Origin: Rothia mucilaginosa
GTDB taxonomy: Bacteria; Actinomycetota; Actinomycetes; Actinomycetales; Micrococcaceae
Direction: 5' to 3'
Assembly: GCF_001061665.1 (NCBI RefSeq)
Contig: NZ_JVSP01000016.1
Span: 62,001 to 126,000, forward strand
Length of the DNA stretch: 64,000 nt
Within the stretch, counting starts at the first letter, position 1; every line of letters begins with the position of its first letter. Position numbers and translations under genes: made by a program. Positions 4,373 to 5,674 of this stretch are shown here, piece after piece. Below the pieces are notes generated by a model that was not told where the DNA came from, did not search any database, and saw only the letters and a list, made by a program, of their open reading frames with translations.

Positions 4373-5674
4373 ATGTTTACCGGAATTATTGGCGCCCTCG
4401 GCACCGTAGAATCCATCACCCCCATCGAAGGCAGCGACGCAGCCTACCTGACCCTCAACGCCGGTGACATCGTCGCCGACCTCGAACACGGCGGCTCCCT
4501 CGCCGTCAACGGTGTATGCCTCACCGCTATCGACCTCGACCGTCTGCAGTCCGGCCAGTTCCGCGCCTACACCATGGGTGAGACTCTGCGCCGCACCAAC
4601 CTCGGCGACCTGACCCCCGGCGATACCGTCAACCTGGAGCGTTGCCTGCCCGCCGGCGGCCGCTTCGACGGGCACGTGGTGCAGGGTCACGTGGATGCGG
4701 TCGGTACCCTCGCATCCGTCACCGCGCACGAGGCATGGAGCACCCTGCGCTTCACCCTGCCCGCCGAGCTGGCACCCCTGCTGGCGGAGAAGGGCTCCAT
4801 CGCTGTCTCCGGCGTGTCCCTGACCGTCACCGCCGTTTCTGAGCCCGGTGAGAGCCCCGCGTGGTTTGAGGTCGGCCTGATTCCCGAAACCCTGAAGGCA
4901 ACCAACCTCGGCACGCTCAAGGTCGGCGACAGCGTGAACCTCGAGACCGATGCGCTCGCCAAGTACGTGCAGCGACTGACCGCCTTCGCCGGCGCGCCTC
5001 AGACTGCTTCTGAGAAGGTTGCGCCGCGCCGCGCCGACGCCGCAAGCGTGCTCGACAGCGTGCAGACCGCGGTGGACGCCATCGCCGCCGGCCGCGCCGT
5101 GGTCGTGGTGGACGACGAGGACCGCGAGAACGAGGGCGACATCATCTTCGCCGCCGAGCACGCAACCCCCGAGCTGATGGGCTTCATGATTCGCTACACC
5201 TCCGGCGTGGTGTGCGCCCCCATGAGCAACAAGCGCGCCGACGAGATGAAGCTACCGCCCATGGTCACCAACAACGAGGATCCCAAGGGCACCGCCTACA
5301 CCGTCTCCTGCGATGCGGCCTCCGGCGTGAGCACCGGCATCTCCGCGGCGGATCGCGCACGCACCGTGCAGATTCTTGCCGATGCCTCCTCCAGTCCGGC
5401 GGACATCACCCGCCCCGGCCACATCTTCCCGCTGCGCGCCGTTGACGGCGGCGTGGCTCAGCGCCCCGGCCACACTGAGGCCGCCGTGGAGCTCTCCCGC
5501 GCGGCGGGCCTATCCGGCGTGGGCGTCATCGCCGAGGTCGTGCACGACGACGGCTCCATGATGCGTTTCGATGCCCTGCGCGCCTTCGCAACCGAGCACA
5601 ACCTGCCCATGATTTCCATTGAGGACCTCATCAAGTACGTGGCACAGAACGCTCCGACCGGGGAGAACGCATGA
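4373..5674 (+). CDS. ribE-ribB: Fusion of riboflavin synthase (alpha) and 3,4-dihydroxy-2-butanone-4-phosphate synthase
   Basis: One uninterrupted 433-residue frame encodes two enzymes. Residues 1-205 are riboflavin synthase: MFTGIIG start, two lumazine-binding repeats (1-97, with [11 protein letters not shown] opening the second at 101), and the [13 protein letters not shown] end. It dismutates two 6,7-dimethyl-8-ribityllumazine molecules to riboflavin. After a linker of about 20 residues, residues 225-425 are DHBP synthase: [10 protein letters not shown] at 247-256, TDIS-like [12 protein letters not shown] and two RPGH turns (347-350, 364-367). It makes the four-carbon unit from ribulose 5-phosphate. 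RibB is normally fused to RibA (RibBA), which here is separate. A GAAAAGGAAA ribosome site precedes the ATG. Internal re-initiation that would yield a separate RibB cannot be excluded. Confidence 0.93.

Follow-up and report, generated by a model that had tools for sequence, protein, structure and literature searches.

A RibE-RibB fusion gene in the riboflavin operon of Rothia and related bacteria, probably encoding a tethered bifunctional enzyme

In the riboflavin operon of Rothia mucilaginosa, riboflavin synthase (RibE) and DHBP synthase (RibB) are encoded by one reading frame, ribEB, whose product is very likely a tethered bifunctional enzyme that arose at a labile operon junction and fixes the expression of its two halves at one to one. 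The gene was found in a window of 64,000 nucleotides (the whole stretch of DNA that was analysed), as a single ATG-to-TGA frame of 433 amino acids at positions 4373-5674 of the forward strand. The original prediction of a RibE-RibB fusion was borne out by frame reading, Pfam and NCBIfam, which revealed two complete domains in this frame.

The first domain (residues 1-202; 4373..4978, forward strand) contains two complete lumazine-binding repeats and carries a helix at its end in the predicted model (residues 194-207). Pfam Lum_binding (PF00677) matched RibEB in two stretches (155.3 bits), and the riboflavin synthase models of NCBIfam cover residues 1-202, where NF006767 scored 210.3 bits, above its curated cut-off of 155. 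This half aligns with 9ryj, 4e0f, 1kzl, 7wuo and 1i8d. The second domain (residues 226-424; 5048..5644, forward strand) is a complete DHBP synthase, matched by DHBP_synthase (PF00926) at residues 232-422 with 278.9 bits and by the NCBIfam ribB model at 227-422, TIGR00506 giving 238.9 against a cut-off of 177.45. As had been claimed, it carries the [10 protein letters not shown] loop and both RPGH turns, and these residues are mostly invariant across 42 fused rows, with the exception of the P of the second RPGH. Judged from the domain ends, the linker (residues 203-225; 4979..5047, forward strand) measures approximately 23 residues, in agreement with the predicted length of about 20. Of the 11 listed NCBIfam models, not one extends over both RibE and RibB. 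The source genome gave one match each to RibB, RibA, RibH and a two-repeat RibE, and the presence of a further RibB, RibBA or RibE copy elsewhere in it was therefore rejected. Since RibE and RibB are single copies, both halves should be functional provided that the cell synthesizes riboflavin; we infer both activities of RibEB from its sequence.

The gene lies in an operon with the other functions of the pathway. Upstream, ribD, coding for a bifunctional deaminase/reductase, was located at 2777..4168 on the forward strand (stretch scanned, approximate start; TIGR00326, 249.6 bits, cut-off 156.35). Downstream, ribA (5671..6429, forward strand; Pfam and frame reading) encodes a GTP cyclohydrolase II with a complete domain as a separate protein; it is preceded by GGGGAG and begins within the ribEB stop codon through an ATGA overlap, just as predicted. 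The lumazine synthase gene ribH follows at 6510..6983 on the same strand (Pfam). RibEB itself is not a RibBA enzyme: PF00925 was not detected in its chain, RibA is a protein of its own, and NF006803 aligns with RibEB at positions 5-207 of 417 only. An FMN riboswitch (RF00050) was detected by cmscan at 1535..1728 (forward strand; 92.2 bits, gathering score 66.2), upstream of a PnuC-family gene and of the rib operon. The PnuC-family (NMN_transporter) membrane protein (1935..2777, forward strand; stretch scanned, approximate start; PF04973, 1.7e-44) is probably, by its family, a riboflavin transporter of the RibM/PnuX type.

AlphaFold2, run on the 42 fused rows, gave a monomer model with two confident domains and a mean pLDDT of 89.4, the pLDDT falling under 50 at residues 208-224, at 97-104 and in the last three residues. 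A Foldseek search with this model retrieved solved RibB structures with a TM-score by target of up to 0.96 and riboflavin synthases of up to 0.89. The pTM of 0.52 suggests that the relative placement of the domains is not fixed in the model. Conservation, expressed as the mean majority-residue fraction over 26 Rothia rows, is 0.74 for RibE, 0.79 for RibB and 0.28 for the linker, and the length of the linker ranges from 9 to 68 residues in the 42 fused rows. These results fit a linker acting as a tether rather than as a fixed interface. A conflict between trimeric RibE and dimeric RibB may fairly be supposed in the fusion, and a linker as flexible as the modelled one would ease it.

The architecture of the operon was taken from stop-to-stop frames at 113 loci, of which 108 entered the tally of separate and fused RibA given below (L124, L136 and L024 were left out for their N letters, L184 for a frame break in RibB and L180 for a split RibB). 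A pathway match was present in 33 of the 35 Rothia genomes and absent from the other 2, and the 33 genomes yielded 35 loci. At 33 of these, corresponding to 31 of the 33 pathway-bearing genomes, a single frame contains both RibE and RibB. RibA is separate in 32 of the fused loci, including L024 with an N interrupting RibE, and is fused as well in L172. The two loci outside this set are L134 of R. santali, where the domains lie in different frames, and the draft locus L136, with N runs in RibB. In R. santali (L070, L134) the RibB-frame linker resembles that of the close relative L135 and holds no start with a Shine-Dalgarno match, and we interpret the split as a disrupted reading frame within one fused gene, whether genuine or introduced by assembly, and not as a true separation. 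The Rothia genome G319 is identical to a Rothia santali contig over 7,701 bases.

A search for the same domain order across Micrococcaceae, the family of Rothia, had been proposed; among the matches listed, this search covered 395 genomes, 377 of them with a match, and the wider, overlapping searches covered 297 genomes in the order, 296 in the class and 149 in the phylum. RibE-RibB was also found in Kocuria and in the genera g12, g8 and g14, and an invention restricted to Rothia was thus rejected. Kocuria corresponds to our genus g5, in which G161 is identical to a Kocuria rosea contig over 3,567 bases. With counts that are not unbiased frequencies, the loci of Kocuria, g12, g14 and g8 having been partly picked for a spanning match, RibE and RibB are fused in 11 of 15 Kocuria loci, and RibE-RibB-RibA occupies one frame in 10 of 10 g12 loci (L122, L123, L126, L127, L130, L137-L140, L158), in the single g8 locus (L129) and at one of two judgeable g14 loci (L119). 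The same three-domain frame is that of Rothia L172 (G081). These frames span 620-838 codons from stop to stop, and each possibly encodes a trifunctional enzyme. In the remaining genera read, 0 of 35 loci showed the fusion.

Outside the family, stop-free spanning matches occurred, among the matches listed, only in G636 and G399 (family f6 of the same order), and as the spanning-match criterion overlooks fusions with long linkers (e.g. G012, G081), others elsewhere were possibly missed. Their loci, L182 in G636 and L184 in G399, hold RibD-RibE-RibB in a single frame (879 and 913 codons, respectively), with RibA on another contig and, in L184, a frame break within RibB; the f6 rows cluster with a named Brevibacterium locus in a tree of 109 rows. 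No fusion was found among 80 named loci, R. santali and K. rosea included. Nine outside candidates with a RibB match near or into RibE, or with a very long frame (L213-L221), all had RibE and RibB in different frames, and spanning matches with an internal stop (e.g. G067, G284, G590, G852, G860, G735, G696, G969) were rejected, the frames showing adjacent genes.

The statement that RibB is usually fused to RibA in actinobacteria held outside the family, at five of six outside reference loci and at the 6 counted unfused f6 loci, but not within it, where a separate RibA is common without fusion: 16 of the 34 loci tallied from other genera keep RibE, RibB and RibA apart, and 4 more have RibA elsewhere. 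A separate RibA is therefore no special feature of the fusion.

The origin of the fusion was studied on a quick tree built from RibE, RibB, RibA and RibH. The larger version, of 109 rows, is without L024, L136, L180 and L184, and the 105-row version, with doubtful and long rows dropped, is also without L124, L129, L120 and L183; L128 was retained although the N-terminus of its RibE is not in the same frame. The fused or unfused state of RibE and RibB changes 7 times on the 105-row tree and 9 times on the 109-row tree, in which L124 and the long rows were kept. Monophyly of the 54 fused rows was rejected on the 105-row tree (p-AU 0.0006). With equal costs, six gains (Rothia, the main Kocuria clade, one further Kocuria, g12, one g14 and one f6) and a sole loss, in R. 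santali, were reconstructed, whereas the single-gain alternative needs 11 losses and is preferred when a gain costs 3 or more, not 2. From these trees, the fusion appears to have formed several separate times in related bacteria. The RibB-RibA state changes 8 times on the 109-row tree. Since both states change repeatedly, the operon junctions look labile in these families, and in the family of Rothia RibB is found alone or fused to RibA, to RibE or to both. The fusions keep the order of the operon (RibE-RibB, RibE-RibB-RibA, RibD-RibE-RibB).

The reading which we favour is that the stop codon of ribE and the start of ribB were most likely lost at their junction in a ribD-ribE-ribB(A)-ribH operon, an event that would have been recurrent in the Rothia family and in a neighbouring one. 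The two domains would fold and work independently in the cell on a short disordered tether, the main effect of the fusion being to hold the two activities at a 1:1 ratio behind a single ribosome-binding site, and substrates would reach and leave the separate RibH by diffusion. Two observations count against this reading: two Rothia loci (L021, L023) have a GGAGGT ahead of an in-frame GTG in their linkers, and one old fusion with 11 losses is reconstructed if a gain costs at least three times a loss. Repeated gain could also reflect selection for more than dosage.

This last point leads to channelling, the strongest of the alternatives and still an unlikely one. According to PMC12855090, DHBP is the product of RibB, and the RibE reaction that forms riboflavin gives back 5-amino-6-ribitylaminouracil. 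The two RibH substrates thus both come from enzymes that the fusion brings together. This substrate logic, on which the original prediction had touched, is attractive: RibB would hand DHBP to RibH, and RibE would take lumazine from it and return 5-amino-6-ribitylaminouracil, in a cage-less complex around a pentameric RibH. RibE trimers and RibB dimers would there build a small symmetric assembly, of two trimers and three bridging dimers or larger. The repeated independent fusion seen in the tree is in agreement with this scheme, as is a putative transient hand-over of DHBP from RibAB to RibH raised for B. subtilis in PMC8414670. However, 106 of 113 loci keep RibH apart from RibA (7 not judged), RibH never lies in the RibE or RibB frame at any locus read, the other fusions add RibA or RibD and never RibH, and the linker is variable and disordered. 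Selection for a metabolon without shell, feeding both substrates to pentameric RibH as an alternative to the lumazine synthase cage, is just as improbable a cause of the repeated fusion.

A further alternative is that internal starts in the linker, or cleavage of it, cause most RibE and RibB to exist as individual proteins in the cell. A disordered linker could be cut, and the GTG and GGAGGT of L021 and L023 may be a relic of, or a live, internal ribB start; several other fused rows show weaker Shine-Dalgarno matches of 4-5 bases. On the other hand, the in-frame GTG codons of the window linker lack a Shine-Dalgarno match of at least 4 bases, whereas among the 34 junctions compared the clearly unfused relatives all (5 of 5) have a start with such a match before RibB. 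A purine-rich site precedes each of ribEB, ribA and ribH. Moreover, no stop codon ends the RibE part, so that full-length chains, at least, should form. The sequence of the window thus predicts one chain, and predominance of separate proteins is considered improbable, somewhat more so than channelling.

The original prediction had also proposed that the fusion tethers both enzymes to a lumazine synthase shell, with RibE docked inside an icosahedral shell and RibB at it. This proposal found no support and is very improbable. The nearest solved relative of the window RibH is 1w19, the M. tuberculosis enzyme. Between the last helices the window RibH matches 1w19 in length and exceeds the aligned cage-type chains, those of A. 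aeolicus, by two residues; the insertion is also absent from four Bacillales RibH. This alignment points to a pentamer rather than an icosahedral particle. The cavity of a RibH shell, besides, holds little more than one RibE trimer. PMC2935281 gives M. tuberculosis RibH as a homopentamer. PMC13376624 and PMC8414670 place the RibE trimer of A. aeolicus and B. subtilis in the RibH shell; the former adds that in cage systems a C-terminal peptide of RibE anchors the trimer to RibH, and that such encapsulation is not universal. In RibEB this end is not free, RibE running into RibB without a stop, which speaks against the known cage arrangement. As for a sequencing or assembly artefact, it is hardly conceivable: nothing in the window favours it, the g14 locus L124, whose apparent fusion depended on a run of N letters between the domains, was dropped, and the frame, in which a stop or frameshift between the domains had been named as the decisive test, is shared in 33 of 35 loci from 33 independent Rothia genomes.

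Compared with known systems, RibEB belongs with fused riboflavin enzymes such as RibBA. As in RibBA, a bifunctional protein of the pathway carries RibB as one of its domains, and by sequence the RibB domain is nearest to 3mk5, 3mgz and 4i14 (M. tuberculosis RibBA); but the partner of RibB here is RibE on the N-terminal side instead of RibA on the C-terminal side, RibA being separate. Heavy riboflavin synthase, the RibE trimer in its RibH shell, likewise brings late pathway enzymes together, whereas in RibEB the link is covalent and with RibB, not RibH, the C-terminus of RibE is not free and RibH looks pentameric by sequence. RibBX, a two-domain DHBP synthase (6mnz), and RibD are also two-domain proteins of the same pathway, with other partner domains and order. 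The RibE-RibB-RibA and RibD-RibE-RibB frames of relatives share RibE-RibB in one frame but add a third pathway domain. No description of the RibE-RibB fusion, nor any paper on the two longer frames, was found in the open PubMed Central papers searched, an absence which is weak evidence. Annotation by the best single domain can overlook RibB or RibE in these genomes. Kocuria, with fused and unfused loci within one genus, offers a natural comparison for asking whether such fusions are neutral or raise the flux.

Two Rothia genomes of about 100% completeness (G118 and G173) gave no match to RibB, RibA, RibE or RibH and are probable riboflavin auxotrophs by gene content, and the same four matches are lacking in G010, G011 and G213 of the family. 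Conversely, G101 (L026, L132) and G195 (L131, L133) each carry two complete rib operons, both with fused RibE-RibB, and within each genome the two copies fall on different branches of the tree.
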